Assembly: GCA_016199745.1 (NCBI GenBank)
Contig: JACQFZ010000050.1
Coordinates: 62,001 to 126,000 of the forward strand
DNA length: 64,000 bases
DNA from: Gammaproteobacteria bacterium
GTDB lineage: Bacteria > Pseudomonadota > Gammaproteobacteria > Acidiferrobacterales > Sulfurifustaceae
Direction: 5' to 3'
Shown: positions 3,318 through 55,931 of the stretch, piece after piece
Position numbering within the stretch: position 1 is the first letter of the stretch
How the letters are laid out: each line of letters opens with the position of its first letter
Program-made: the position numbers and the translations under genes
The notes under the pieces: generated by a model
Database searches by the model: none
Told to the model about the DNA's origin: nothing
What the model saw: only the letters and a program-made list of their open reading frames with translations

Positions 3318-5375
3318 TTAATTAACGACGTCGGCCGCCAACGGCCGGCCGGTCGCCGTCGACCGTACTGTTGCCTCGGCCAAAAAATCTTTGCCGCTGG
3401 TTTGCTTGGCCACTTTCTTCTGCACCACTGTATCGACTTTGGGCATAACCGCGCCTGCTCGTAGCGCCGCATCGCGCGCCAGCACTTGTGCAATCTCGGC
3501 AGCTCGAGCAATCGCCGCGTCGGCATCCGGAAAATCTTGTGGACCCTCGGGTCCGTGCACGCGAAACAGCTCGAGCTTCGGCTGTGTTACCAAAATCTCG
3601 ACCGACTGCATGACGACGCCGGCAACAGCACCGATGGCGTTGGTCACGGCCGCATGCTCCGGAATCACCAACGGCGCCTGCAAGCGCTCCGCTACTTGCG
3701 GATAGTAACTACGCACCGGCGCACCGATGGCGATGAGCGAGGCATTCAGACTGAAAGTGACATTCGCCAACCGCGAGAACATCTTGCCGCTGACCACATC
3801 TTCGATGAACGTGTCGCCGAACCGGCCCCAGCTGCCGCTGGTGGCGCGACGAATGCATGGATCATGCGCCAGCACTGCCTCGAACACCACCCGTCCGGTT
3901 TGACGAACGACGGCTTCGCGTATTTCGGTACAGAATTCTGGGACATCGGTATCGCTCAGTTGCTCTAGCCAACCGCGACGCTCACGAATCAACAATGCCG
4001 CACCCAGTCGCGCTGCTTCCACGTCCCAGCTGTGTTGCTCGCCCAACACGTGCATCGCATCACTCGGCGTGATGCCGGACGCGGCGACGAGGCCCTGACT
4101 CACCAGCGATCGCAGTGCCCGTAGCGCGCTGGCGCTGCGGGCGATCTCGGCTAACGGTTGCGGTCCCGGCGCGAGCGCATCCCAAACTTTTTGCTCGATT
4201 TTGGAGCTTAGATGCACGTCGGTGCGAGCACTTTGGCGAAATGCGAACCGCGCCGGGTGTAACGGCGGGATTTCCGCGAGCGCTTGCGCCCGCAACACAT
4301 CGAGGATCGCCGGCGTCGTCTTCGCCAATAAACTCAACGGCACGACTCGCCGTGGGCCGATGGTCAACTGCGCCTGATCGTTGAAGCCGACTTCACTGTC
4401 GCCGCCGAGGCCATACGTGCGCACGTCGACCGCCTGCACCATCGTGTTCCAACCACCGACCAGTGCGCCCTCGTCGTTCAACACCGGCTTGCCGTCACGG
4501 ACGATGGCGATGTCAGTGGTCGTGCCGCCCATGTCGGACACGACAAAATCTTCTATGCCGGTCAAAAATTTCGCGCCAACGACGCTGGCCGCCGGTCCCG
4601 ACAAGATCGTTTCGACCGGACACTCCAACGCGACCTTGGCATCCATCAACGAACCATCGCCCTTCACCACCATCAGCGACGCATGGATGCGCTCGATTGC
4701 CAGTACTGCTTGCACCGCTTCGATCAAATGCCGAATCTGCGGCGTCAATTGCGCGTTGAGCGCGGTCGTCAACGCGCGCCGCGGCGCGTCGAGCCGCGAT
4801 GTCAGCTCGTGACCACAAGTGACCGGCTTGTGCGTGAGATCGCGAATCAGTTGGCGTAAGCGGACTTCATGGCTCGGATTGCGCACCGAAAAAAGGCTGG
4901 AGACAGCGAAGGCGTCGACCCGCGCCGCGTGCTTGAGCACCACCGCCGTCGCCGCTTCGATATCGAGCGGCGCCAGCTCTTCACCGCTGGCGCGATGACC
5001 GCCGGCGATCAAAGCGGTCGGGCTATTGATCAACGCCTCGCGCAGCCCGGCGCGCGACAGCATCTGCTCATCGTAGCCGATCAAGATGGCACAAATCGGA
5101 CCGCGCTGGTTCTCGACCACGGCATTGGTTGCCAATGTGGTCGACACCGAGACTAGGCTGATGTCGGCCGACGATAACGGCGCCGGCAATTTTTCGATTA
5201 CCGCTTTGATCGCGCCGGCGAGACCGATCGATAGGTCGTGCTTGGTCGTCAGTGACTTGGCAGTAGCGATGACCTGCTTGCTACCGTTGAGGATGACCGC
5301 GTCGGTGTAAGTCCCGCCAGTATCCAAGCCCAACCAAAGATCTTTGTTACTGGGGGTCGTGTTAGTACTTGTCAT
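3318..5375 (-). CDS. hydantoinase/oxoprolinase family protein (HyuA-like ASKHA ATPase)
   Basis: A 685-residue protein of the HyuA/5-oxoprolinase A family. The N-terminal phosphate loop LGLDTGGTYTDAVIL and the second ASKHA loop DMGGTTTDIAIVRDGKPVL are intact, so it should bind and hydrolyse ATP. No HyuB-type partner, which true hydantoinases and oxoprolinases need, lies in the window. The start overlaps the end of the MttB-family gene by 14 bases, so both are translated from one message. ASKHA ATPases such as RamA/RACo reactivate corrinoid proteins for methyltransferases; by analogy this one might serve the adjacent MttB homologue. That is inference: it lacks the ferredoxin domain of RamA. Confidence 0.85.
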   Translation of the reverse strand: MTSTNTTPSNKDLWLGLDTGGTYTDAVILNGSKQVIATAKSLTTKHDLSIGLAGAIKAVIEKLPAPLSSADISLVSVSTTLATNAVVENQRGPICAILIGYDEQMLSRAGLREALINSPTALIAGGHRASGEELAPLDIEAATAVVLKHAARVDAFAVSSLFSVRNPSHEVRLRQLIRDLTHKPVTCGHELTSRLDAPRRALTTALNAQLTPQIRHLIEAVQAVLAIERIHASLMVVKGDGSLMDAKVALECPVETILSGPAASVVGAKFLTGIEDFVVSDMGGTTTDIAIVRDGKPVLNDEGALVGGWNTMVQAVDVRTYGLGGDSEVGFNDQAQLTIGPRRVVPLSLLAKTTPAILDVLRAQALAEIPPLHPARFAFRQSARTDVHLSSKIEQKVWDALAPGPQPLAEIARSASALRALRSLVSQGLVAASGITPSDAMHVLGEQHSWDVEAARLGAALLIRERRGWLEQLSDTDVPEFCTEIREAVVRQTGRVVFEAVLAHDPCIRRATSGSWGRFGDTFIEDVVSGKMFSRLANVTFSLNASLIAIGAPVRSYYPQVAERLQAPLVIPEHAAVTNAIGAVAGVVMQSVEILVTQPKLELFRVHGPEGPQDFPDADAAIARAAEIAQVLARDAALRAGAVMPKVDTVVQKKVAKQTSGKDFLAEATVRSTATGRPLAADVVN

Positions 5376-6627
5376 GTTCCAGAGCCAGCAATTCTTCCGA
5401 GCGGGCCCGCACGAAATCGTTGAGTGCCATATCTATCTTTATATTGAGTTGCGAAATTTCCGAATGCGGCAACAGCGCGTCATCGGCCCAGTTGCCACGC
5501 GACTTCCTTATATGAAGCAAGCCGGCGTGATCCAAGTGCCATTTATCTTGGCTGACGGCGAGCCCGTTATCCATCCAGCCGGCGGCATGTAATACAAAGT
5601 CTGCGCCCGCGTCTAGAGCCAATTGCAAGGAAAAGCTCGATTCGGCGGCCGCTTGCGCGTCGACGCATTTCGCCGAGGTGAATCCGCCATCGAGCCGGTA
5701 TGGCACGCCCAGCCGGCGGAACAGCTGCCCTGCCGCCAGACTTACCAGCCAGGTGGTCGGCTTGCCACAATCCGGCCGCATGGATTTCATCGAGAACGGA
5801 ACACCGACAATTCCCCCCATGACCGGTGCCCCGGGATTCACCAACTGTGTCGTCGCTAAACCGAATAGGACCTCGGCGAATCCTTGCGCTAGTGCACCGG
5901 CAATCGTCGTCGGCGCCATCATGCCAAGCACCAGCCATGACGCAACCTGGGTCGCCTGCCCGGTCGCTGCCGAATAACACAGCGCCTCGATCACGCCTTT
6001 GTCGAAACGCAACGGCGAATCGGGGTTGATGATATTAAGTAAGCAGCAGCGACCCACCATCTCTCGTTCAAACACGATCGTCGCCAGCATCAATGCATCT
6101 TTATAGCGTTCGACCGACGGCTTCGGTCCTAAGAGAGGTTTACCGGTATAGCGGAATTGGATGGCGAGATGTTGCAAGTGCCGCACCGGCGTCGCCACGT
6201 CGGTAACCTCGCACAACGTACCGGCGTGACGCAGTCCGCTCGATGCTTGCACGAGTTGTGTCAGCACCGCGAGATCGGCGCTGGTCGTATAACGCCGCTG
6301 ACCGTCCGGGGTAAGTAGGAAAGGCGTAAACGACGCCGGCGCGCAGACACCGCTGCCCTGGCCAAAATCGATTGAATACGCGTGGTCGCGCGCGAGTTGC
6401 CGAAACGATGCCGGCGCCGAGCGCGCGATGATCGCACGCGCTAAGCCGGCAGGAACTTTGATACAGCCTGCTTCGACACGTGCGCCCTGCTGGCGCCACA
6501 GTTGTTCGACTTGCTCACTGCCGGAACAGTCGATGCCGATCGTTGCTAAAAGCCGCTCGGCATTTTGTTCGATGACGACGACGCCATCGTCGGCAAGTAC
6601 CGTGGCAAAGGGTTTGGCCGCTGACAC
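5362..6627 (-). CDS. MttB-family (non-pyrrolysine) methyltransferase
   Basis: A 421-residue member of the trimethylamine methyltransferase (MttB) superfamily, recognisable from the N-terminal helix pattern ending in VPAGLARAIIARSAPASF and the TIM-barrel core (KPLLGPKPSVERYKDA, GALAQGFAEVLFG, GAPVMGGIVGVPFS). The frame contains no internal TAG, so it is a pyrrolysine-free type. Characterised relatives demethylate quaternary amines such as glycine betaine, proline betaine, carnitine or gamma-butyrobetaine onto a corrinoid protein. No corrinoid protein gene was seen here. It is the middle gene of an MFS-MttB-HyuA operon opposite a LysR gene. A quaternary-amine substrate fits the rest of the window but is unproven. 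Confidence 0.87.
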   Translation of the reverse strand: MSAAKPFATVLADDGVVVIEQNAERLLATIGIDCSGSEQVEQLWRQQGARVEAGCIKVPAGLARAIIARSAPASFRQLARDHAYSIDFGQGSGVCAPASFTPFLLTPDGQRRYTTSADLAVLTQLVQASSGLRHAGTLCEVTDVATPVRHLQHLAIQFRYTGKPLLGPKPSVERYKDALMLATIVFEREMVGRCCLLNIINPDSPLRFDKGVIEALCYSAATGQATQVASWLVLGMMAPTTIAGALAQGFAEVLFGLATTQLVNPGAPVMGGIVGVPFSMKSMRPDCGKPTTWLVSLAAGQLFRRLGVPYRLDGGFTSAKCVDAQAAAESSFSLQLALDAGADFVLHAAGWMDNGLAVSQDKWHLDHAGLLHIRKSRGNWADDALLPHSEISQLNIKIDMALNDFVRARSEELLALEHDKY

Positions 6628-16866: not shown

Positions 16867-19800
16867 CTACTCCACAACAACTTCCTCATCGAGCTTATCA
16901 AGATAGGCAAACACTTTGGCAAGTTCGATCGACCGAAGATCATGCCTTCCTTCGATGCAAAGTAAGCGCCGGGCGTACGGCCGCGCTTCCTGCACGCTGC
17001 GGCACAAAACATCCTCACGCGGCAAGGCGATAACGTCGGCAACGGCGAGCTGTTCGTCATAGAAACGGTCGTATAGCACGAACTTCGCTTGCCGCTTGAT
17101 ACTTTCGTCCGGTAACAACGCGAAGTCGCCAAACCAGGGGAGCTGACGCAAAACCGTGCGCGCTCGCTCGGGGGAGATCGCATCGATGTCGATTTCTCGG
17201 AACTGCGGCAAGCGTGCCAACTCCAGTTTCGGCGGGGACACCAAAATCAATCGCGGTAATACGGCAAGCTTTCCCGCGACCATCGCCATGAATCGCTGAG
17301 CGATAAGACTGCCCATGCTGTAACCGAAGATCGTGATGGTAGTCACAGCAGCCGGCAGGCCGGCAATATGCGCCAACCACTGATCAGACAATGTCTCCAT
17401 GTTAGCAGCGCGCTCGAAGTGGACGACGAACATTTGTCCGTCACCCGGAATTTCAACCGTTTCGGTGACAGTTATCGGATCCGACATAAATCCGTTGACG
17501 AAGTAAAGCACCTCAGACGTGGTCGAACCGCTTCGGACCGAAGTGAAAACCTCACCGTCTTGTTCGTGCGATCGCGGGCTTACCGACGTCGCCACCAGAG
17601 CCGCCAGCCGATCGGCACCCTTGTCACGCGCATCGTACAGCTCGCCCAGACGAGCGAAGCTCAACTGACGGATCTCCGGCAAATCGACGGCAATATCGAA
17701 GTGATTCTTGAGCACGTGCTCGATCTCCACCGCCATCAGCGAATCCATTCCAAGCTCGCCGAGCGTGTGGCGCTCATCCACCGCCTGTTCAACGCCGAGC
17801 CCAAGCACCGTCTTGATGGCGGCGAATAAGCCGCTGCGGCTACGTTCGATCGTCGCCATCGCCGCCTGTGACGCGCCCGCCCCGCTCCGGTCCAGCAACA
17901 AGCTGCCGACCACCGGCTCCGGCTGTAACATAAATTGCTCGAGTACGGCCAAGCAGGATGCCAGACTCTGGTCGTGCAATATGGCGCTAGTAACGCGCAC
18001 GCGCTCACGATTCTCCTGGACGAAACCCACATCGCCGATCGGACCCCATTGCACCGCCAACGCCGGATATCCTTGCTGCCGGCGACGCTCGCACAACCAC
18101 TCCATCGCTCTATTGGCATAGGCGTAATTCGACTGCCCCGCGTTACCAAATACGCTCACGAGCGACGAGAACACCACAAAATGCTCAAGCGCAAAACAGT
18201 GCGCACGACTCGATGCATCTAGATTTGCCGAACCGTTGATCTTGGCGCGACAGGTCGCTTCGAAGCTTTCTGCCGTCTGATTCGTGAACAACGCATCGCG
18301 CAGCTCCATGGCTAAATGGAAGATACCGCCGACAGGTCGGCGCGCCTCAATTTCCTGCACGAGTCGCTCGACTTGTGCAGTATCAGCGATATCGGCCGCC
18401 ACCACCTGCACCGCCACGCCTTGCCGCTCCCAGGTGTATCGGCGATACGCTTGATAGGTATCGCGTATACCGGAGCGGCCGACGAGCACGATATCGCGCG
18501 CGCCGCGTTGCACTAACCAATCGGCGAGTTCGAGGCCGACGCCGCCTAGACCTCCGGTAATGAGATAACTCTTCTGTGGATCGCACCAAATAGCCGGGCG
18601 CGCCGGTATTTGCACCGGCACGGACGCCTGCTCGTCGCGCAAGCGTAGCAACACCTTGCCGATGTGCCGACCACGCGCCATGTAACGGAATGCTTCCTCG
18701 ACTTGATCGTGCCCGAATACCGTCCGATCGAGCGGTTGCACGACACCGTCAAGTATCCCCGCGCGCATAAGTTGCATTAATTCCTCTAGCTGCGCCGTGT
18801 TATCGTTGACAAGATCGTCGAGCCCGACTCCGTGAAAACTGATATCGCGCAGAAACACTTCCATACCGAGCGCCGCATTACGCGCCATGTCGTACTTACC
18901 GATTTCAACGAAACGTCCATGTCGCGCCAATACCCGCAAGCTCGCCTGCAGCTTGTCGTCGGTCAACGAATTGAGCACGACGTCCACACCGCGGCCGGCG
19001 GTCGCACGTTTTACTAAATCGACGAACGAGGTGTCGCGTGAATTGCCGATATGATCGTCGGCAATAAAGGGGAACCGTTGCTTCACATAAGCACGCTTCT
19101 CCGGCGAACCGATGGTAGTGAAAATTTCGCAGTCGAGCGCATGGGCGATTTGAATCGCCGCCTGACCGACACCGCCGCTGCCGGCATGAATCAATACGCG
19201 TTCGCCGCGGCGCAACCTGGCGCGCAACAGCAATCCGAGATAGGCGGTCATGTACACCACCGGTACCGTCGCCGCCTGTTCAAATGACCAACCCGCCGGA
19301 ACGTCGAAAATGCACTGACCGCTGTCGTCAGCACGACCGACGAATCTAGAGGCGAACGATTCGGCAACGAAACCCATCACGCGGCGCCCGTCCGCCGCCA
19401 TGCCGGCAAATTCACCACCGGCCGCGGCACTCAACCCACCGCCGAAAATTTCTTCCGGCAAGCGTCCGGTCGCAAGCACTACTGCTTTGAAGTTCACACC
19501 GAGATAGTACGGCTCGAACTCGGTCACCGCTTCCTTCCACCTCGGGGCTTGCCGCCAATGCAGCGTCGACAGATCGCCACGCGTCTGTAAATCGAGGGTA
19601 ACGTTGTCGCTCGTCACCGGCGCGGGCAACACGAACGGCAAATGCCGGAAAGAACCCCAACATCCGTGGCGATGGACGTTTACGGTTAGATCCAGTCGAC
19701 GCTGATGGGCTATCTCGGCGTCGCTGACGACGTTCTCTCGATCGGTCACTAAGCAACGAACACGGTCGCCGCTGGCCTCGTAGCGTAAGCAATTCACCAT

Positions 19801-22800
19801 GCCGACGAGACCCGGCGCGCTCGGTTCCGTCGCATCGAGCCAGAAGCGGGATTGCGGGTCCGCCGCCAGCCGGACGATGCCGGCTTGAATCGGCACCAAC
19901 TCACTCACCGGCGAATCGACCTGGACGAAATGCGGATACAGCTCGCGCTCTGCACGTTTGCGGCATAGAAACAACGTCGAGTAAAGGCCGTCATCCTTCA
20001 ACGCCACCACATCGAAGCCGCATTCATCGAGCAATGTCTGCCAACGCTCGCGTGTTAGGACGGCACCGTGGCTACGGTCCTCCGGATCGTCGTAGTTCCA
20101 CAGCTGATCCAGAAAGCCCCAGATACTGAGGAGCGAACGATAACCGTGCGTCACTTCGTGAAATAACAGGAAGCCGCCGTCGCCAAGTGCGGCACGAATA
20201 TGCGCCAGCGACGTCCGCAAATTGCGAACAGCGTGTAATGCGTTACTCGCTAATACCAGGTCGACATTCCCGCCGATGGTTGCCGGCATCGATCGATTGA
20301 GATCCCATACCTGACAATCGATCATCGTATCGTAGTCGGCGAAGCGGTCACGCAGACCACCAAAAAAGCCGGCGGAGATGTCGGTCAAGGTGTAGCGGTC
20401 CTTTTCCGGACGCAGGCGCGACAAAACGTAAGCGCTGAGACCGCCGGTGCCACTGCCGATCTCGCACAGATGTAGACCGCGATTCACCGGACTATTCTCG
20501 TACACCACATCCAGCAACGATCCGAGATAACGATCGCAAAATAACGCTGCGGCGCCGATGTCGTCGCTATACAGTTGTTTGTATTGGTCGTAACCAACGA
20601 TAACCGACAACGGATCGTCGATCAGCTGTTGCGGATGTGCGTACACATGGTGCGCCAAGCGCATGAAGATAGCGTTAGGTTCGGAAAATACCTCCGGTTC
20701 GCGATGGACCGTCTCTGTTTGTATGAGCACGGTCTTCAGACGCTGCACGTGCGCCGGCAATGTACGCCCGTCGGCCTCGGCCTGCGCGATCACAATCAAC
20801 GCCGCCTGCACCGTGAAGTCGGCCGAACGGATATAACGTTCGAATATTTCAGCATCATCGAAATCGCGACAGTTGTTTTCGATGTAAGGGATAAATTGAT
20901 ATCGCATGAGACGTGGCTGTTGCAGCGGGCGCGCCGCCGAAAAGCTGGCACAACGCAAACCTTCGATAGTCACCGCCGGCCCGACAACGCGTTGGGTAAC
21001 GAAGTCGTTATAGACATCAATGGTCTCTGTCGGCGGCTGGCGCGTCGGATCGATCGTAATCTCGCCGATGGTCGTTGGCACAAGCGTCGCCCGCGGCATC
21101 TGCATCAGCCCGGACTGCAACATGCCATCGAGGAACGTTATCCAATCGCCGCGCCAAGCAAGTTTGCAACGCGAGCCATCCGCAGCAATCTCCTCAACCG
21201 GCTGAAATGCCGGACCATATCGGTAGCCGCGTAACCGTAACTCTTTATAAAAGTCGGCAGCCTGCAAGTTCAGCTCGGCCGGCAACACCGACACGTCGGC
21301 CGTTGTTTGCGGCAACGTGATCTCGGCACCAGTGATTACGCGGCCGCTGACGACTAACTCGCCGTTACTCGATACCTCGAACAAATGCGCCGTCGGCAGG
21401 TAACGCACCGCCAGCTCGACCGCGGTACCCGCGACCAACCGCGTCGGTCGATGTAACCGAACATCGTTAAACCGCACCGGCAGACGGTCGAATGCCACAT
21501 TCATCGCCGCGGCGACGGTACGCCAGACGAGAGACAGGTATCCGGTCGCCGGGAACAACACATGTTCGCCCAACTTGTGATCCGCTATGGGCGCATATTC
21601 CTCGTCGGCAATATCGATGCGAAACACCACATCGCCCGCACCACCGCCGCCGGACTCGTTCGACAGTGTCGGCACCTCCCATGCTTGCGCGTGGTCCCAA
21701 GAACACAATTGCGGAATATGACAAGGCGATGTCAGCGGATACATCGGTGCAAACAAGCTCGACCAATGGAGCTCGACGCCACGCACATAGCACCGCGCCA
21801 CCCCCTCGAATAGCGCATCGGTGTTATCCCGATCACGCGCCATGAGGCCGACGTGTTCAGATGCGGTTACCGTTTCTGCTACCGGTAAACGCATCAACGG
21901 ATGGGCGCCGATCTCGATAACGAGCGCACCCTCCGGCACACGCTGCAATGCCTCGAAGAAACGAACGGGATTGCACAGGTTGTCGACGTAGTACTGCGCC
22001 GAGCAAAGTATCGGTGCATCGGTCAACGGCTGCGACGTGCTGAGCCAACGCGGACTGCGTGCACGCGGCTGGGCGATCACGCGTGTCAGCGCTTGCAGCA
22101 ATGCCGGCGCCGCCGCGCGTACGCCGGTTGAATGAAACGCGATCTGTGACGAGTTGACTTCACGTGCTTCGATACCTTGCGCGACCAGCCGTGCCACCAT
22201 GGCATCGATTTGTTCGGCATCGCCGGACACCGTGACACTCTGGCGCGCGTTGTGGCACGCCGGCACGACGCCGTCCGGACACAACTCGCTCGTCGCCTCC
22301 CAATCCAGGCGCACTGCCGCCATTTTGCCGCGCGCCGCCGGCGCGTCGGTCACGCAGCGGCCACGCCAATACGCGGCGAGGATCGCTTCTTCCGCCGTTA
22401 GTGCGCCGTCGGCATAGCCGCAAGCGGTCTCACCGACGCTATGACCAATGAGGCCATCCGGCACAACGCCGAGCGCCCGCAGTAGATCGACCAATCCGAT
22501 TTGAACAGCGGTTAAACCGACGAACGCCTTCGTTGGATCGTTAAAATCTGCGGCATCCGCCTGCGTCAATAACCGTTCGAGATCGATGGCGGTACCCACC
22601 AACGCCGCCGCACAACGTTCGATGGCCGCGCGAAACGGCGCCAGCACGAGCAGCGCTCGCCCCATGCCCGGCCACTGCGCACCCATACCGGGGAAAACGA
22701 ACCACACCGGCGGACGCTGGCCGACGATGTCGCGACGAAACTCGCGAATCGTTCCATCGTGGCGACGCACGACCGCGCCCCGAAACGGATGTGTCTTCGG

Positions 22801-24195
22801 CGGCATCGCCGCAACACCCTGAAGTAGCATGGCCATATCGGGCGACAGTGCGCCCGAGGTATAGCAACTCGTTAACGCATCTAGACCTTCCGCCGTGCGC
22901 GCTGCCAACGGCACGATGGCCGGTACCGGCGGCACATCGACCGCCGTAACTGCATTCACCTCATCGCGCAAAATCACATGGGCGTTGGTGCCGCCGAAAC
23001 CAAAGGAATTGATGCCGACAATGCCACCGTCCCAATTCAACGGCTCGGTAACGACGCGCAAACGGCCGTCCAACAATCCCGGGATGTCCGGATTCGGCGC
23101 CGTGAAATGCAAATTTGGCGGCAGCCGCTTATGCTCCATCGCCAACAGCACCTTAAGCACACCGACCAAACCGGCCGCTCCTTCGGCATGACCCATGTTC
23201 GATTTAACAGAACCGATCCACAACGGCGACGTTTCGGCGGTACGGCCGGCGCAAAAAATGTCGCACAGTGCATTGGCTTCCTGCGGATCGCCGGCGGTCG
23301 TGCCGGTGCCGTGGGCTTCGACATAACCCACCGAACCGGGATCGATGCCGACGCGCGTATACAAAGAAGCAATCAAATCACGTTGCGCCTGCCCGTTCGG
23401 AAACGTGATGCCTTGCTCGGTATAACCGTCATTGTTGACGGCACTGCCGAGCACGCTGGCGATGACGCGACGCGCCAATGGCTTGCGTGTCAGAAATACC
23501 GCTACCACCCCTTCCGCGCGCGCGTAGCCATTGGCATCGTGAGCGAACGAGCGGCAGCTACCATCGGCTGAAAGCATTTTAAGTTTGGCGAAGCCGACGC
23601 TCAGCGCCGGCCGCAGAATCACGTTCACGCCGCCGACGACAGCGTAGTCGCACTCGCCGGCAGCCAACGCACGCACCGCCGCATCCAGCGCCACCATCGA
23701 CGACGAGCACGCCGTATCGATCGTCTGACTGCTACCGTGGAAATCAAAAAAATACGAAAGTCGATTGGCCATCATCGACAATGCGCAGCCGGTGTTCTCG
23801 TAGCCGGTCATTGAATCCGGCCGCGCGCCTTGAAGCGAATGCGCATCGCTGAAACAGGCACCGACATACACACCCGTCTTCGAACCGCGGATCTGCGCCG
23901 GATCGACGCCGGCGCTCTTAATCGCCTCGTAGCTAACTTCGAGCAGCAGCCGCAGTTGCGGGTCCATCTTGTGCGCCTGCTTGGGATGAATCTCAAAAAA
24001 TGAAGCGTCGAAACGCGAGAGATCTTTCAGCTTGGCAAAGCGCGACGGAAGATCGTAGAGATCGATCGGCCAGCGCCGCGCATCGGCGGTGACCATGTCT
24101 CGACCTTCGATTAAATGTTGCCAAAATTCCTGAGGGCCATCGGATTCAGGAAGACGGCAGGAGTAACCAGCGATAACGACAGCATCAGAATCCAT
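16867..24195 (-). CDS. animal-FAS-like iterative type I PKS/FAS (KS-AT-DH-MT-ER-KR-ACP-TE)
   Basis: One 2442-residue polypeptide from ATG 24195 (GGGAGG eight bases before). Approximate domains: KS 1-410 (Cys163 in DTACSSS, His295, Lys331, His336); AT 495-815 (Ser586 in GHSVGE, Arg612, AFHS at 686-689); DH 855-1090 (His873, Asp1023 in FLDGMLQ); C-methyltransferase 1170-1410 (EIGSGTGG at 1245-1252); ER 1560-1850 (HAGSGGVGQAA); KR 1875-2060 (GGLGGVG, Tyr2024 in QSNYAYAN); ACP 2120-2190 (Ser2152 in LGMDSL); alpha/beta-hydrolase TE 2225-2442 (Ser2293 in GYSMGS, His2418). Long stretches look collinear with vertebrate FAS, e.g. KLKDLSRFDASFF, HPKQAHKMDPQLRLLLEV, LFPATGYLSLVW and GLAVQWG-like ALAVQWGPIGDVG. 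Likely product: a reduced, possibly alpha-methylated acyl chain released by the TE. No tailoring genes or phosphopantetheinyl transferase are adjacent. Confidence 0.93.
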   Translation of the reverse strand: MDSDAVVIAGYSCRLPESDGPQEFWQHLIEGRDMVTADARRWPIDLYDLPSRFAKLKDLSRFDASFFEIHPKQAHKMDPQLRLLLEVSYEAIKSAGVDPAQIRGSKTGVYVGACFSDAHSLQGARPDSMTGYENTGCALSMMANRLSYFFDFHGSSQTIDTACSSSMVALDAAVRALAAGECDYAVVGGVNVILRPALSVGFAKLKMLSADGSCRSFAHDANGYARAEGVVAVFLTRKPLARRVIASVLGSAVNNDGYTEQGITFPNGQAQRDLIASLYTRVGIDPGSVGYVEAHGTGTTAGDPQEANALCDIFCAGRTAETSPLWIGSVKSNMGHAEGAAGLVGVLKVLLAMEHKRLPPNLHFTAPNPDIPGLLDGRLRVVTEPLNWDGGIVGINSFGFGGTNAHVILRDEVNAVTAVDVPPVPAIVPLAARTAEGLDALTSCYTSGALSPDMAMLLQGVAAMPPKTHPFRGAVVRRHDGTIREFRRDIVGQRPPVWFVFPGMGAQWPGMGRALLVLAPFRAAIERCAAALVGTAIDLERLLTQADAADFNDPTKAFVGLTAVQIGLVDLLRALGVVPDGLIGHSVGETACGYADGALTAEEAILAAYWRGRCVTDAPAARGKMAAVRLDWEATSELCPDGVVPACHNARQSVTVSGDAEQIDAMVARLVAQGIEAREVNSSQIAFHSTGVRAAAPALLQALTRVIAQPRARSPRWLSTSQPLTDAPILCSAQYYVDNLCNPVRFFEALQRVPEGALVIEIGAHPLMRLPVAETVTASEHVGLMARDRDNTDALFEGVARCYVRGVELHWSSLFAPMYPLTSPCHIPQLCSWDHAQAWEVPTLSNESGGGGAGDVVFRIDIADEEYAPIADHKLGEHVLFPATGYLSLVWRTVAAAMNVAFDRLPVRFNDVRLHRPTRLVAGTAVELAVRYLPTAHLFEVSSNGELVVSGRVITGAEITLPQTTADVSVLPAELNLQAADFYKELRLRGYRYGPAFQPVEEIAADGSRCKLAWRGDWITFLDGMLQSGLMQMPRATLVPTTIGEITIDPTRQPPTETIDVYNDFVTQRVVGPAVTIEGLRCASFSAARPLQQPRLMRYQFIPYIENNCRDFDDAEIFERYIRSADFTVQAALIVIAQAEADGRTLPAHVQRLKTVLIQTETVHREPEVFSEPNAIFMRLAHHVYAHPQQLIDDPLSVIVGYDQYKQLYSDDIGAAALFCDRYLGSLLDVVYENSPVNRGLHLCEIGSGTGGLSAYVLSRLRPEKDRYTLTDISAGFFGGLRDRFADYDTMIDCQVWDLNRSMPATIGGNVDLVLASNALHAVRNLRTSLAHIRAALGDGGFLLFHEVTHGYRSLLSIWGFLDQLWNYDDPEDRSHGAVLTRERWQTLLDECGFDVVALKDDGLYSTLFLCRKRAERELYPHFVQVDSPVSELVPIQAGIVRLAADPQSRFWLDATEPSAPGLVGMVNCLRYEASGDRVRCLVTDRENVVSDAEIAHQRRLDLTVNVHRHGCWGSFRHLPFVLPAPVTSDNVTLDLQTRGDLSTLHWRQAPRWKEAVTEFEPYYLGVNFKAVVLATGRLPEEIFGGGLSAAAGGEFAGMAADGRRVMGFVAESFASRFVGRADDSGQCIFDVPAGWSFEQAATVPVVYMTAYLGLLLRARLRRGERVLIHAGSGGVGQAAIQIAHALDCEIFTTIGSPEKRAYVKQRFPFIADDHIGNSRDTSFVDLVKRATAGRGVDVVLNSLTDDKLQASLRVLARHGRFVEIGKYDMARNAALGMEVFLRDISFHGVGLDDLVNDNTAQLEELMQLMRAGILDGVVQPLDRTVFGHDQVEEAFRYMARGRHIGKVLLRLRDEQASVPVQIPARPAIWCDPQKSYLITGGLGGVGLELADWLVQRGARDIVLVGRSGIRDTYQAYRRYTWERQGVAVQVVAADIADTAQVERLVQEIEARRPVGGIFHLAMELRDALFTNQTAESFEATCRAKINGSANLDASSRAHCFALEHFVVFSSLVSVFGNAGQSNYAYANRAMEWLCERRRQQGYPALAVQWGPIGDVGFVQENRERVRVTSAILHDQSLASCLAVLEQFMLQPEPVVGSLLLDRSGAGASQAAMATIERSRSGLFAAIKTVLGLGVEQAVDERHTLGELGMDSLMAVEIEHVLKNHFDIAVDLPEIRQLSFARLGELYDARDKGADRLAALVATSVSPRSHEQDGEVFTSVRSGSTTSEVLYFVNGFMSDPITVTETVEIPGDGQMFVVHFERAANMETLSDQWLAHIAGLPAAVTTITIFGYSMGSLIAQRFMAMVAGKLAVLPRLILVSPPKLELARLPQFREIDIDAISPERARTVLRQLPWFGDFALLPDESIKRQAKFVLYDRFYDEQLAVADVIALPREDVLCRSVQEARPYARRLLCIEGRHDLRSIELAKVFAYLDKLDEEVVVE

Positions 24196-24643
24196 GACAT
24201 AAACCTCCCATTGATTATCTTGCAGACACGAACACTGATCACGACATGCAGCACTGCGATCGAGGTTCACGGCGAAGAAGCAAAATAGTATGAGCGATGC
24301 GTTGTCGTCTCAACTGCCCGTTTGGCCATCAACATCTCGATCGACGGAGCAAAAAACAAGACACGCGAGCGCGTGCGCGGCTCTGGCAGACGATAAGGAG
24401 TTAGATTTTTCTGTTGCGACAGATGAATGACGATCGACTTCGCACAACGCGACGATGGCTGACAACGAATTCGATCTATTACAGAATGAAGAGAGCTACC
24501 GCAAAAATATAAATCTCATTTCCGAGATAGCCCCAACTACAACTTACAGACAAAAAACGGTGAGCGCAAAAACTATAGCGCATCAGATCAGACTGGCAGC
24601 GCGAAAGCTAGGCTCAAACAGAGGGAGAACAATGGCATCACTT
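24196..24643. other. intergenic region upstream of the giant synthase gene
   Basis: About 450 bases between the synthase start and the end of the CaiD-like gene. It is visibly more AT-rich than the flanks, especially at 24400-24590, and should hold the synthase promoter. A plus-strand frame beginning at 24455 has no recognisable family and runs into the opposite-strand CaiD gene, so I do not call it. No RNA gene or repeat was recognised. Confidence 0.5.
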
Positions 24644-44057: not shown

Positions 44058-46514
44058 CTAGGCTCGCAATTTCGCGTTGTCCGGATCGTACGGCGACTCG
44101 ACTACGACCGTGGCCTTCTTGCGCTCGCCGAGGATCTCGATCTCAAGCTGGGTGCCGACTTCGGCGAATTCCGGCTTGATGTAGCCCAACGCCAGGCTCT
44201 TGCCGAGCACGTGGCCGTAGTAACCGGCGGTGGCGCGACCGACCATCTTGCCGTCGACGAACAACGGCTCGTTGCCGAGCGGATCCGCATCTTTCACACC
44301 GTGCACTTCGAGCGTGATGAAACGGTGCGGCACACCGTCTTTCAATTGCTTCTCGAGCGCGGCCTTGCCGGCGAATTCCGGCTTCTTCATGCGCACGAAA
44401 CGGTCGAGACCGGTTTCGAACGGGGTGTAGTCGCGGGTCATGTCCGAGCCCCACATGCGGTAGGACTTCTCGAGACGCATCGATTCCATCGCCCGCAGAC
44501 CGAACATGCACATGCCGAATTCTTTACCGGCATCGACCAGCAGGTCGAACAACGAGTTGGCGTACTCGATCGGGAAGTGCAATTCCCAGCCGAGCTCGCC
44601 GATGAAGTTCACGCGCAGCGCGTAGACGTCGGCGGCGTAACCGACTTCGATGTTCTGCGCCGTCAACCACGGGAAGCTGTCGTTGTCGAGCTTGGTGTCG
44701 GTGAGCTTCGCCAACACTTCGCGCGACTTCGGTCCGGCGAGAATGAACGCGCCGCGGCTCATGGTGATGTTGCGCACCTGTACCGAACCGTCGCTCGGCA
44801 AGTTCTTCACGAGGAAGTCGTTGTCGTGACGATCGGCGGCAGCGGCGCTGACGACGTAGAAATAATTCTCCGCCATCTTGGTGATGGTGAACTCAGAGAT
44901 GATGCCGCCGCGCTTGTTCAACGCATGCGACAACGCCATACGACCGATCTTGGCCGGCACCTTGTTGGCGACGAGCTTGTCGAGCCAGGCTTCAGCGCCC
45001 GGGCCGGTCACTTCGTGCTTGGTGAACGCCGACAGATCGAGCAGGCCGACCTTCTCGCGCACCGTGCGGCATTCGTTGCCGACGTGCTCGAAGTAATTGC
45101 TGCGACGGAAGCTCCAAACGTCCTTCGCCTCGACGCCCTTCGGCGCGAACCAGTTGGCGCGTTCCCAACCGAAGCGTTGACCGAACACCGCACCCATCGC
45201 CTTCAACTTCGGATAGATCGGGCTGGTCTTGTTCGGACGACCGTCGTGACGTTCTTCGTCCGGATAGTGAACCGTGAACACTTCACGGTAGGTCTCTTCG
45301 TTCTTGGCAACGACGTACTTCTTGCTGGCGTACGCGCCGAAACGACGCGGGTCGGTGGCGAGCATGTCGATGCCCGGCTCACCTTCGGTGATCCACTCGG
45401 CGAGCTGCCAGCCAGAACCGCCGGCGGCGGTGACGCCGAAGCTGTGGCCTTCGTTGAGCCAGAGATTACGCACGCCCCACGCCGGTCCGATCAAGGGGCT
45501 GCCGTCCGGGGTGTAGGAAATCGGGCCGTTGACGATGGTCTTGATGCCGGTGTGTTCCAAACACGGCACGCGCTTCATCGCCGCTTCGACGTGCGGCAAC
45601 AGACGATCGAGGTCGCCGTCGAACAGGGTCTTGCCGAACCAATCCGGCACGCCATCGGCGAACCGCGCCGGTGCGCCCTTCTCGTAAGGTCCAAGGATCC
45701 AGCCCATGCGCTCTTCACGCAGGTAATACGAAGCGTCGGACTCACGCAGCACGGCCAGCTCATGGCCGCCAGCTTGGCGATACTTCTTCAGCTCTTCGGA
45801 TTCGTTATAAACGATGTACTGGTGTTCGACCGGAATCGCCGGCACGTTGACGCCGAACATGCGGCCGGTTTCGCGCGCGTAATTGCCGGTCGCGCAGACG
45901 ACGTGTTCGCAAACGATGTCGCCCTTGTCGGTCTTGACCTTCCACTCGCCCGACGCCGTCTTCTCGACGCCGATAACTTTGGTGTGCTCGTAGATTTCGG
46001 CACCACGGTTACGCGCGCCTTTGCGCAGCGCCATGGTGAGATCGACCGGAGCAATGTGGCCGTCATCCGGGTGATACAGCGCGCCGACGATCTTCTTCGT
46101 GTCTTTGCCGTCGCCGAGGTTCACCAGCGGCCAGAGTTTCTTTACGTCTTCGGGAGTGATGACTTCAAAGGGAACGCCGATGGTGTTGGCGGTGCCGCAA
46201 TATTTGAGGTATTCGTCCATGCGGGCGCGGTTGGTCGCGAGGCGCAGGTTGCCGGTGACGTGGAAACTGACGTCCTGACCGGTTTCTTCGTGAAGCTTCT
46301 TATAGAGGTCGACCGAGTACTTGTGCAGCTGGCCGACGGTGTAGCTCATGTTGAACAACGGCAACAATCCGGCAGCATGCCAGGTAGAGCCGGCGGTCAA
46401 TTCGCTGCGCTCGACGAGCACGACGTCCGACCAACCTTTCTTCGCTAAATGGTACAGCGTGCTGACGCCAACAACGCCGCCGCCGATCACTACTACCCGG
46501 GCCTGGGTCTTCAT
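44058..46514 (-). CDS. dimethylglycine dehydrogenase (FAD oxidoreductase-GcvT fusion)
   Basis: An 818-residue enzyme of the DMGDH/sarcosine dehydrogenase type. The N-terminal FAD domain (VVVIGGGVVGVSTLYHLA) includes His46 in GSTWHAAGLL, the residue that carries covalent FAD in relatives. The middle is DAO-type (NEGHSFGVTAAGGSGWQLAE). The C-terminal half is an aminomethyltransferase-like folate domain (VGLLDLSAFTKHEVTGPGAE ... GLRAMESMRLEKSYRMWGSD). It demethylates dimethylglycine to sarcosine, giving methylene-THF and electrons to ETF, whose genes follow. A sarcosine dehydrogenase role is possible, but soxBDAG nearby makes dimethylglycine the better guess. Confidence 0.9.
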   Translation of the reverse strand: MKTQARVVVIGGGVVGVSTLYHLAKKGWSDVVLVERSELTAGSTWHAAGLLPLFNMSYTVGQLHKYSVDLYKKLHEETGQDVSFHVTGNLRLATNRARMDEYLKYCGTANTIGVPFEVITPEDVKKLWPLVNLGDGKDTKKIVGALYHPDDGHIAPVDLTMALRKGARNRGAEIYEHTKVIGVEKTASGEWKVKTDKGDIVCEHVVCATGNYARETGRMFGVNVPAIPVEHQYIVYNESEELKKYRQAGGHELAVLRESDASYYLREERMGWILGPYEKGAPARFADGVPDWFGKTLFDGDLDRLLPHVEAAMKRVPCLEHTGIKTIVNGPISYTPDGSPLIGPAWGVRNLWLNEGHSFGVTAAGGSGWQLAEWITEGEPGIDMLATDPRRFGAYASKKYVVAKNEETYREVFTVHYPDEERHDGRPNKTSPIYPKLKAMGAVFGQRFGWERANWFAPKGVEAKDVWSFRRSNYFEHVGNECRTVREKVGLLDLSAFTKHEVTGPGAEAWLDKLVANKVPAKIGRMALSHALNKRGGIISEFTITKMAENYFYVVSAAAADRHDNDFLVKNLPSDGSVQVRNITMSRGAFILAGPKSREVLAKLTDTKLDNDSFPWLTAQNIEVGYAADVYALRVNFIGELGWELHFPIEYANSLFDLLVDAGKEFGMCMFGLRAMESMRLEKSYRMWGSDMTRDYTPFETGLDRFVRMKKPEFAGKAALEKQLKDGVPHRFITLEVHGVKDADPLGNEPLFVDGKMVGRATAGYYGHVLGKSLALGYIKPEFAEVGTQLEIEILGERKKATVVVESPYDPDNAKLRA

Positions 46515-52753: not shown

Positions 52754-52922
52754 TTGCACCTTCGATTACGAACGGCGGCCGTGAATCGGCGTTGCCTTCG
52801 TTCAACATCCCCTCTCCTCTACCCCTGTCCCGGTCGCTCCTGCGCCCGCGACATTCGCGCATCCGTGCGCAGCACAAGGGGACAGGGCAAGTCGGTTCGC
52901 TTTGCGGTTTAAGAGGTGGCGC

Positions 52923-55900
52923 GTGAGTCAGCACCGTTTAGATAACGGCGGTCGCATCGACCGCAGCAAAAAGATTTCGTTTACCTTCAACGGCAAGCAG
53001 TACCAAGGCCATGCTGGCGACACGCTCGCCTCTGCCCTGCTCGCCAACGGCGTGTCACTGGTGGCGCGCAGCTGGAAATACCATCGCCCGCGCGGCATCG
53101 TCTCGAGCGGTGTCGAAGAACCGAGCGCGATCGTGCAGCTCGAAACCGGTGCTTACACCGTACCGAACGCGCGCGCGACCGAAATCGAGTTGTATGAAGG
53201 CCTGAGCGCGAGTAGCGTCAACTGCTGGCCGAGTGTCGACTTCGACTTGATGTCGATCACCAGCAAGTTCGCGCGTTTCATGCCCGCCGGCTTCTACTAC
53301 AAGACCTTCATGTGGCCGAAGTCGTTGTGGATGACGTACGAACATTTCATCCGCAAAGGCGCCGGTTTCGGCAAATCGCCGGAAGTCGCTGATCCCGATC
53401 ATTACGACAAGACCTACGCCCACTGCGACGTATTGGTCGCCGGTGGCGGTGTCGCCGGCTTGGCCGCTGCGCTCGCTGCCGGTCGTGCCGGCGCACGTGT
53501 AATCATCGCCGATGAGCAAAACGAATTCGGCGGCCGCCTACTGAGCGTGCGCGGAACGACCGAGACCATCGACGGCGTCGCGCCGAATGTGTGGGTCGAA
53601 CGTACTCTGGCCGAGCTGCGCTCGATGCCGGACGTGCAACTGCTCTCGCGCAGCACCGTCTTCGGTTATCACGACTACAACTACGTAACGATCAACCAGC
53701 GCCTAACCGATCACCTGCCAATCGCTAACCGCAAAGGCGCGCGCGAGCGCGTATGGCGTGTGCGTGCCAAGCAAGTGATATTGGCGACCGGCGCTATCGA
53801 ACGGCCGCTGGTGTTCGGCAACAACGATCGCCCTGGCATAATGCTGGCGTCGGCCGTATCGACTTACTTGAACCGATATGGCGTGCACCTCGGCGTCAAT
53901 GCCGTCGTCTTCACCAACAACGACAGCGCCTATCAAACCGCGCTCGATCTCGCTGCCGCCGGTATCACCGTGGCCGCAATCGTCGACCCGCGCAGCCAGC
54001 CGCAAGGCGAGCTAGCGCAGCAAGCGCGCACGGCTGGAATCAAAATCATCGATAACTCGGTCGTCGTCGACGTCGATGGCTGCAAGCGCGTCAGCGGCGT
54101 CAAAGTCATGACGCTTGCCGGCAACGGCGTCACCGGCTCGGCACAAACGATCTCGTGCGACCTGGTGGCCATTTCCGGCGGCTGGAGCCCGGCCGTGCAT
54201 CTGCATGCACAATCGGGCGGCAAGGCCCGCTTCGATGAAGCGAAGGCCTGCTTCGTACCCGGCACATCGGTGCAAGCCGAGCGTTCGATCGGCGCCGGTA
54301 ACGGCAGCTTCGCGTTGGCCGCATGCCTGAACGAAGGCTTGAGCGCCGGTACCGAGGCGGCACGCCTCGCCGGCTTTAGCAACGCCACCATCCCGCCCCT
54401 ACCGAAGGCACAACAACCGGCAGAGCAGGCGCTGAAGCCGCTTTGGGTCGTGCCGTCGACCTATCCGATCAGCCGCGGTCCGAAGCGGTTCGTCGATCTG
54501 CAAAACGACGTCGGCGCCTCCGACATCGCGCTCGCCGCCGCCGAAGGCTACCGCTCGATCGAGCACGTCAAGCGCTACACCGCGCTCGGCTTCGGCACCG
54601 ATCAAGGCAAGCTCGGTAACATCAACGGCATGGCGATCCTGGCGCAAACGTTGGGCCAAGATATCCCGAGCACCGGCACCACTACGTTCCGTCCGAACTA
54701 CACGCCGGTCACGTTTGGTTCGATCGCCGGCCGCGAGCTGAATGATTTGCTCGATCCGATTCGCAAAACCGCGATTCACCAATGGCACGAAGAGAACGGC
54801 GCGCTGTTCGAAAACGTCGGCCAATGGAAGCGTCCTTGGTATTTCCCGAAGAACGGCGAATCGCTGCACGACGCCGTCAACCGCGAGTGCGTGGCAACAC
54901 GCAAGAGCTGCGGCATCATGGATGCCTCGACCCTCGGTAAGATCGACATCCAAGGTCCGGACGCCACCACGTTCTTGAACTGGGTCTACACCAACTCGTG
55001 GACCAAGCTCGGCGTCGGCAAGTGCCGTTACGGCTTCATGCTCGACGAGAACGGCATGGTGTTCGACGACGGTGTCACCACGCGTCTCGCCGAAAATCAT
55101 TTCTTGATGACCACCACCACCGGCGGCGCCGCGCGCGTTATGTCGTGGCTCGAGCGCTGGCTGCAAACCGAGTGGCCGCACCTCAAGGTTTACCTCACGT
55201 CCGTCACCGATCATTGGGTGACACCAGCCGTCGTCGGCCCGAACAGCCGCAAGGTGTTGCAAGGTGTCTGCAAAGACGTCGACTTCTCGCCGGAAGCGTT
55301 CCCGTTCATGGCGTACCGAGAAGGCACCGTCGCCGGCGTGCCGGCGCGCATCATGCGCATCAGCTTCTCCGGTGAGCTCGCCTACGAAGTCAACATCAAC
55401 GCCAACTATGGTCGACATGTGTGGGAAGCGCTGATGGCAGCAGGTAAGCCATACGACATCACGCCGTACGGCACTGAGACCTTACACGTGCTGCGCGCCG
55501 AGAAGGGTTACGTGATCGTCGGCCAAGACACCGACGGCTCGGTCACACCGATCGACCTCGGTATGGAGTGGGCCATTACCAAAGGCAAAGACTTCCTCGG
55601 CCGGCGCTCGTTATCGCGCTCCGATACCGCGCGCGACAACCGCAAGCACTTGGTCGGCCTGCTGACCGAGAACCCGAAGGAAGTCATTCCGGAAGGTGCC
55701 CAGGTCGTCACCGACAGCACGGTGCCGATCCCAACACCGATGATCGGCCACGTAACGTCGAGCTACTACAGCGCCTTCCTCGGTCACTCGATCGCCATGG
55801 CCATGGTCAAAGGCGGCCGCAAGCGCATGGGCGAGAAGGTTCAATGCCCGCTGGCGGACGGTCGTGTCATCACCGCCACTATCACCGGCTCGGTGTTTGT

Positions 55901-55931
55901 CGATCCGGAAGGAGCACGTCAAAATGTCTAA
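52923..55931 (+). CDS. soxA: sarcosine oxidase alpha subunit
   Basis: A 1002-residue subunit starting at GTG 52923 (GAGGTG just before; an upstream ATG at 52902 is less likely). It has an N-terminal Fer2-like domain (ISFTFNGKQYQGHAGDTLAS), an NAD-binding disulfide-reductase fold (VAGGGVAGLAAALAAGRAGA) and a C-terminal GcvT-type folate domain (CGIMDASTLGKIDIQGPDAT ... LHVLRAEKGYVIVGQDTDG). It receives the imine made by SoxB and transfers the methyl carbon to THF as methylene-THF, leaving glycine. It overlaps the soxG start by 8 bases. Confidence 0.95.
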   Translation: MSQHRLDNGGRIDRSKKISFTFNGKQYQGHAGDTLASALLANGVSLVARSWKYHRPRGIVSSGVEEPSAIVQLETGAYTVPNARATEIELYEGLSASSVNCWPSVDFDLMSITSKFARFMPAGFYYKTFMWPKSLWMTYEHFIRKGAGFGKSPEVADPDHYDKTYAHCDVLVAGGGVAGLAAALAAGRAGARVIIADEQNEFGGRLLSVRGTTETIDGVAPNVWVERTLAELRSMPDVQLLSRSTVFGYHDYNYVTINQRLTDHLPIANRKGARERVWRVRAKQVILATGAIERPLVFGNNDRPGIMLASAVSTYLNRYGVHLGVNAVVFTNNDSAYQTALDLAAAGITVAAIVDPRSQPQGELAQQARTAGIKIIDNSVVVDVDGCKRVSGVKVMTLAGNGVTGSAQTISCDLVAISGGWSPAVHLHAQSGGKARFDEAKACFVPGTSVQAERSIGAGNGSFALAACLNEGLSAGTEAARLAGFSNATIPPLPKAQQPAEQALKPLWVVPSTYPISRGPKRFVDLQNDVGASDIALAAAEGYRSIEHVKRYTALGFGTDQGKLGNINGMAILAQTLGQDIPSTGTTTFRPNYTPVTFGSIAGRELNDLLDPIRKTAIHQWHEENGALFENVGQWKRPWYFPKNGESLHDAVNRECVATRKSCGIMDASTLGKIDIQGPDATTFLNWVYTNSWTKLGVGKCRYGFMLDENGMVFDDGVTTRLAENHFLMTTTTGGAARVMSWLERWLQTEWPHLKVYLTSVTDHWVTPAVVGPNSRKVLQGVCKDVDFSPEAFPFMAYREGTVAGVPARIMRISFSGELAYEVNINANYGRHVWEALMAAGKPYDITPYGTETLHVLRAEKGYVIVGQDTDGSVTPIDLGMEWAITKGKDFLGRRSLSRSDTARDNRKHLVGLLTENPKEVIPEGAQVVTDSTVPIPTPMIGHVTSSYYSAFLGHSIAMAMVKGGRKRMGEKVQCPLADGRVITATITGSVFVDPEGARQNV

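Follow-up and report, generated by a model that had tools for sequence, protein, structure and literature searches.

The locus described here raises the question of whether a bacterium can carry a true relative of animal fatty acid synthase (FAS), or whether its megasynthase is an ordinary reducing polyketide synthase (PKS) that shares catalytic motifs with FAS and nothing more. In the window (the whole stretch of DNA analysed, 64,000 nucleotides), the open frame 24270..16867 on the minus strand comprises 2467 codons (P0001). Its ATG at 24195 corresponds to residue 26 of this frame and, with the stop at 16867, yields a protein of 2442 amino acids. A previous interpretation of the DNA letters, referred to here as the sequence-only reading, had placed the gene at 16867-24195 without naming a strand; because the ATG at 24195 follows a GGAGG element, these limits are exactly those of the 2442-residue coding sequence. 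Its statements that the gene possesses a bacterial ribosome binding site and lacks introns also held, the site being separated from the ATG by 8 bases, and all motifs it quoted are found in the protein. The domain order it gave, KS-AT-DH-MT-ER-KR-ACP-TE, was confirmed with one addition, a pseudo-ketoreductase, so that the full order reads KS-AT-DH-MT-psiKR-ER-KR-ACP-TE. Pfam models match, in this sequence, KS, AT, DH, methyltransferase, FAS pseudo-KR (PF21149, 60.9 bits), ER, KR and ACP, while the TE stays below the Pfam threshold (Table 1). The catalytic residues Cys/His/His of KS, Ser/Arg/His of AT and His/Asp of DH are intact, as are the cofactor motifs of ER and KR, the KR tyrosine and the ACP serine.

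Table 1. Positions in the window of the megasynthase gene, its ribosome binding site and the encoded domains.
Feature	Coordinates	Strand	Remarks
FAS-like megasynthase gene, 2442 aa	16867..24195	-	ATG at 24195
Ribosome binding site GGAGG, 8 bases before megasynthase ATG	24204..24208	-	
Ketosynthase (KS)	22960..24189	-	DTACSS, EAHGTGT, KSNMGH intact
Acyltransferase (AT, MAT-like)	21751..22704	-	GHSVGE, YWRG arginine, AFHS as in human FAS
Dehydratase (DH)	20881..21648	-	His (DHKLGEHVLFP) and Asp (FLDGMLQ)
C-methyltransferase (MT)	19951..20565	-	EIGSGTGG (1270-1277), H1346, E1372 intact (P0001 numbering)
Structural pseudo-ketoreductase subdomain (psiKR)	19603..19950	-	PF21149
Enoylreductase (ER)	18631..19602	-	NADPH motif HAGSGGVGQ
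Ketoreductase (KR)	17866..18588	-	GGLGGVG and Tyr/Asn motif
Acyl carrier protein (ACP)	17635..17838	-	LGMDSL serine
C-terminal thioesterase-like alpha/beta hydrolase (TE)	16891..17553	-	GYSMG Ser2318, His2443

An animal-like gene in a binned genome could be eukaryotic contamination, and some of the relatives described below indeed derive from metagenome-assembled genomes. Against this explanation, the gene is intronless, has a Shine-Dalgarno site and lies among bacterial genes on a contig that is at least 126 kb long; the source genome is bacterial and 98% complete. Its composition is that of its surroundings, as had been claimed: the G+C content is 59.2% compared with 58.5% for the window, codon usage correlates with that of the other genes at 0.93, and in tetranucleotide distance the gene is as close to the window as other segments of it are. 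Furthermore, the gene occurs in five genomes, each time in a bacterial context, with G+C contents of ~50 to 66% in the four that were measured. Contamination is thus all but ruled out, and we regard the gene with high confidence as a resident bacterial one for which recent import, too, is improbable. On other contigs, the source genome carries several type I PKSs of the ordinary kind (L002, L003-L006, L004/L010 and L007); these are ~35-39% identical to the megasynthase. Stand-alone ketosynthases of ~407-444 amino acids are found elsewhere in the same genome; they might belong to a separate type II system, the genes of which were not inventoried.

Among all PDB sequences, the megasynthase matches human FAS (1727 bits) and pig FAS (1716 bits) best. 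The human alignment is a single stretch that pairs residues 29-2220 with 34-2231 of the FAS chain, so the nearly full-length similarity to vertebrate FAS proposed by the sequence-only reading is unbroken. The AFPKs (animal FAS-like PKSs) EcPKS1 (1335 bits in two stretches) and EcPKS2 (1216 bits) of Elysia chlorotica come next, and the best bacterial entries are MAS (552 bits) and DEBS (508 bits). ER-KR-ACP alone score 577 bits with pig FAS versus 223 with MAS. Identities to human FAS are 58% for KS, 45% for AT, 55% for ER and 49% for KR, compared with 43-49%, 26-35%, 34-41% and 33-38%, respectively, for seven ordinary bacterial PKSs. Domain by domain, the megasynthase is therefore the closest bacterial relative of animal FAS among the sequences compared.

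For phylogenetic placement, human and pig FAS, EcPKS1/2, LovB, PsoA, Dictyostelium Pks16, CurL, MAS and Pks13 were taken from the PDB as references. Animals are represented in these trees only by the human and pig FASs and the two AFPKs of Elysia, and in the ER and KR trees, which lack AFPKs, by mammalian FAS alone. In the KS tree (36 rows, LG+C20, IQ-TREE), four bacterial FAS-like proteins, namely the megasynthase and three relatives, form a clade (support 96/88) that is sister to animal FAS plus AFPKs (98/94). The union of both groups receives 100/100 on a stem of 0.58 and excludes fungal, amoebal and bacterial PKSs; the fungal highly reducing PKSs branch next (97/88). The AT, ER and KR trees each unite the bacterial proteins with animal FAS at 100/100, in the case of AT together with the AFPKs, on stems of 1.34, 1.02 and 1.08, and a concatenation of the four domains agrees with this union. 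The bacterial proteins do not fall within the animal sequences but outside human and pig FAS plus EcPKS1/2; in the KR tree the two mammalian FASs are instead nested among the bacterial proteins. A position of KS, AT and KR inside an ordinary bacterial PKS clade would have refuted the proposal of a bacterial sister to animal FAS and AFPKs. This test was run and did not refute it, and for the window gene and its three relatives we consider the sister relationship very well supported.

These data also bear on the possibility that the protein is an ordinary bacterial or mycobacterial-type reducing PKS, such as a MAS-like enzyme or a cyanobacterial module, with only catalytic motifs in common with FAS. 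In its favour, the domain set matches that of many C-methylating reducing PKSs, and the top NCBIfam match, albeit below the cut-off, is to a model for type I PKSs in general. However, MAS, DEBS and Pks13 obtain much lower scores than FAS, the best plasmid-encoded PKSs are just ~31-36% identical, KS, AT, ER and KR each group with animals at 100/100, and the KS lies in neither the MAS nor the CurL clade. This alternative can be set aside almost entirely. MAS and its kin are bacterial iterative reducing synthases of methyl-branched lipids, as the megasynthase is inferred to be, but the MAS KS belongs to a separate bacterial clade, and the source of the methyl group probably differs (methylmalonyl-CoA in MAS, SAM in the megasynthase). 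The fungal enzymes LovB and PsoA follow the related logic KS-AT-DH-MT-(psi)KR-ER-KR-ACP and have the C-MT His and Glu in common with the bacterial proteins, yet they remain outside the animal plus bacterial clade, which is set apart by its long stem. The AFPKs are collinear with the bacterial proteins and unite with them and FAS in the KS and AT trees (100/100), but within this union they group with animal FAS. The Sup and Swf PKSs of sponge symbionts are likewise small, monomodular and bacterial, and Sup has been proposed to produce methyl-branched fatty acids (PMC4245539); they are absent from our trees and group apart from animal FAS in the KS tree of that study.

The methyltransferase domain distinguishes the bacterial proteins from animal FAS. 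All five retain the SAM motif, E-[IV]-G-x-G-[TS]-G-G, together with the His and Glu of CurJ and LovB, a dyad to which a catalytic role has been assigned in PKS C-MTs (PMC9821293). At the corresponding sites human FAS reads EVLAGHGH, CAVAA and HTLL. With CurJ and LovB, both active C-MTs, the MT core reaches 106 and 79 bits, respectively, compared with 38 for the FAS pseudo-MT. By its SAM-binding motif and His-Glu dyad, the domain is of the PKS C-methyltransferase type and not an inactive pseudo-methyltransferase as in animal FAS. The predicted MT structure is poor (mean pLDDT 60), too low for a fold search, and the claim of activity consequently rests on motifs alone; the C-MT is likely to be active, although no activity data support this inference.

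At the carboxy terminus the relationship to FAS is less clear. A sequence search detected no FAS-TE match in the last 230 residues, and only weak alpha/beta-hydrolase and thioesterase matches, under Pfam's threshold, were obtained. The serine of the GxSxG motif (Ser2318) and His2443 are invariant across four members, and the segment is predicted to adopt an alpha/beta-hydrolase thioesterase fold (pTM 0.82). Its top Foldseek match is the human FAS TE (13% identity, TM 0.59), but many other thioesterases are equally close. We therefore do not assign the segment as a FAS-type TE, the sequence search being negative and the fold match non-specific.

Compared with human FASN, the megasynthase thus displays the same domain order including the pseudo-KR, collinearity over ~2200 residues, the MAT motifs and a C-terminal hydrolase whose predicted fold belongs to the same class. 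It differs in being bacterial, in the intact SAM motif and His/Glu dyad that FASN has lost, in a TE without recognizable sequence homology and in identities of ~45-58% per catalytic domain. The megasynthase is nevertheless not an animal FAS, given its position outside the animal clade, its non-degenerate MT and a TE that differs in sequence from that of FAS.

Four relatives were identified in other Pseudomonadota genomes, with identities of 58%, ~50%, 46% and 34%. In the genome contig search, a Rhizobacter MAG yielded a relative of full length (L011) and a Gammaproteobacteria MAG the greater part of another (L012, the remainder on L019); whole-genome searches added a full-length protein of 46% identity (L016, genome G293) and a divergent one of 34% identity that lacks the TE (L033, genome G765). 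The C-terminal hydrolase is present in the four closest members. No further relatives were found in ~1385 genome look-ups, some of them repeats, from which the family of the Rhizobacter MAG was missing. Within these look-ups, a phylum-wide draw of 398 genomes yielded none, and no second carrier was detected in the orders of the source genome (57 genomes), G293 (40) or G765 (143). Viral contigs searched held no relatives, and plasmids encoded only ordinary PKSs (at best ~31-36% identical). With so few carriers among the genomes searched, the distribution is rare and patchy.

There is no conserved gene neighbourhood. Flanking genes differ at every locus compared, and the synthase therefore stands alone, save for L033 and a PLP-enzyme gene. 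Directly downstream of the TE-less L033 lies a class I/II PLP enzyme resembling alpha-oxoamine synthases (L033:8099-9214; L034:18215-19483), which may hint at release by amino-acid condensation, as in sphingolipid-like products. Plasmid PKSs of Pseudomonas and Caballeronia (L025, L026) each have a class I/II PLP aminotransferase-type gene behind them, either immediately or after one intervening gene, a layout that recalls the L033 arrangement. In the window, the segment 24690-37165 encodes an ECH, two ADP-forming acyl-CoA synthetases, an acyl-CoA dehydrogenase, a 3-hydroxyacyl-CoA dehydrogenase, a BKACE protein and an AraC/DJ-1 regulator; these genes probably serve a pathway resembling carnitine/betaine catabolism and apparently have no tie to the synthase. 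Reading a product from this neighbourhood (the ECH, acyl-CoA synthetase and acyl-CoA dehydrogenase upstream, together with BKACE and the 3-hydroxyacyl-CoA dehydrogenase) was considered and abandoned, and we claim no gene cluster because none of these catabolic genes is conserved at the other loci. The genes at 5362-6627, 44058-46514 and 52902-55931, an MTTB-family methyltransferase and two sarcosine/dimethylglycine dehydrogenase-like proteins with GCV_T domains, are likely to function in methylamine and betaine demethylation.

On the basis of the relationship, the domain order, the intact catalytic motifs and the presence in five genomes, all of which are shown, we favour the model that the megasynthase is a resident type I iterative synthase sharing an exclusive ancestor with animal FAS and AFPKs. 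Its activity, iteration, methylation pattern, chain length, release and product are inferred, with no activity or product data, and the genes next to it give no clue to the product. Its working mode may be like that of animal FAS or of a fungal highly reducing PKS. An Sfp-type transferase, the gene of which was not inventoried, would load phosphopantetheine onto the ACP, the MAT-like AT would load acyl and malonyl groups, and the KS would condense them. The SAM-dependent C-MT would methylate the beta-ketoacyl-ACP in some or all cycles before reduction by KR, DH and ER. Cycles would repeat on one ACP until the C-terminal hydrolase sets free an acid that is methyl-branched and largely saturated. 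The enzyme would act as an accessory lipid or polyketide synthase and not as the main FAS of the cell.

Two other functions were weighed against this model. A role as primary fatty acid synthase, with straight-chain, palmitate-like products as in animals, would fit the full reductive loop, the TE-like domain and the MAT residues identical to FAS. We consider it unlikely in view of the intact C-MT motifs, the further PKSs and the stand-alone ketosynthases that the genome encodes, and the absence of the gene from most related genomes, which also marks it as dispensable. A partly reduced polyketide, for example a pyrone as for EcPKS1, is suggested by the kinship to EcPKS1 and EcPKS2, and the TE-less L033 with its PLP-enzyme gene hints at another product type. 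Intact DH, ER and KR motifs and the C-terminal hydrolase in the four closest members argue against such a product, which we likewise hold to be improbable.

The sequence-only reading had left open a transfer in either direction. This is still unsettled, but the position of L033 tips the balance towards bacteria as donors. In a KS-only tree L033 groups with the other bacteria (92/78), whereas the concatenated tree places it below bacteria plus animals (95/96), and an AU test rejects a single bacterial clade (p=0.013). The split recurs with LG+G, with SR4 recoding, without AFPKs, with fewer outgroups and with complete KS+AT columns (SH-aLRT 97-100, bootstrap 92-100). Since L033 branches below both groups in the concatenated trees, animal FAS seems to be nested in bacterial diversity; because the L033 branch is long (1.24), this placement is evidence and not proof. 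The reverse route, in which bacteria received the gene from an early animal or another eukaryote and it then spread among Pseudomonadota, is supported by the patchy distribution without a second carrier in three orders (57, 40 and 143 genomes), by the KS-only tree that holds all bacteria together and by the many animal lineages missing from our trees. Conversely, the bacterial sequences lie outside FAS plus AFPKs and not among animals, L033 keeps its low position across models, the MT motifs are kept by bacteria and lost in animals, and animal-type FAS was not found in choanoflagellates, sponges and ctenophores (Lin 2024, PMC10764717). We therefore rate the eukaryotic origin as the weaker of the two routes, though by no wide margin. 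Transfer from bacteria to animals is preferred only slightly, given the long branch of L033, its conflicting KS-only placement and the sparse animal sampling. A bolder reading, for which we see slightly more reason to doubt than to believe, is that animals acquired the FAS/AFPK gene from the bacterial C-methylating FAS-like clade and later lost MT activity; the donors would have been iterative synthases that today persist in scattered Pseudomonadota.

The open-access literature searched contained no description of a bacterial clade of this kind, although a report may have been missed. Short KS fragments near animal FAS were described in a 2014 metagenome of the sponge Plakortis halichondrioides (PMC4245539) and could represent an earlier glimpse of it. 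A bacterial clade united with animal FAS in each of the four catalytic domains tested bears directly on the statement in PMC10764717 and, as sister to FAS plus AFPKs on KS and AT, helps to root the family. The origin of animal FAS, so far unsolved, thereby becomes testable. Because the bacterial clade has retained a C-methyltransferase that is apparently active, the ancestor of animal FAS is predicted to have made methyl-branched chains, and it is conceivable that it methylated its products before the MT decayed. A bacterial relative of this medically important enzyme also allows a methylating synthase to be compared with a non-methylating one.
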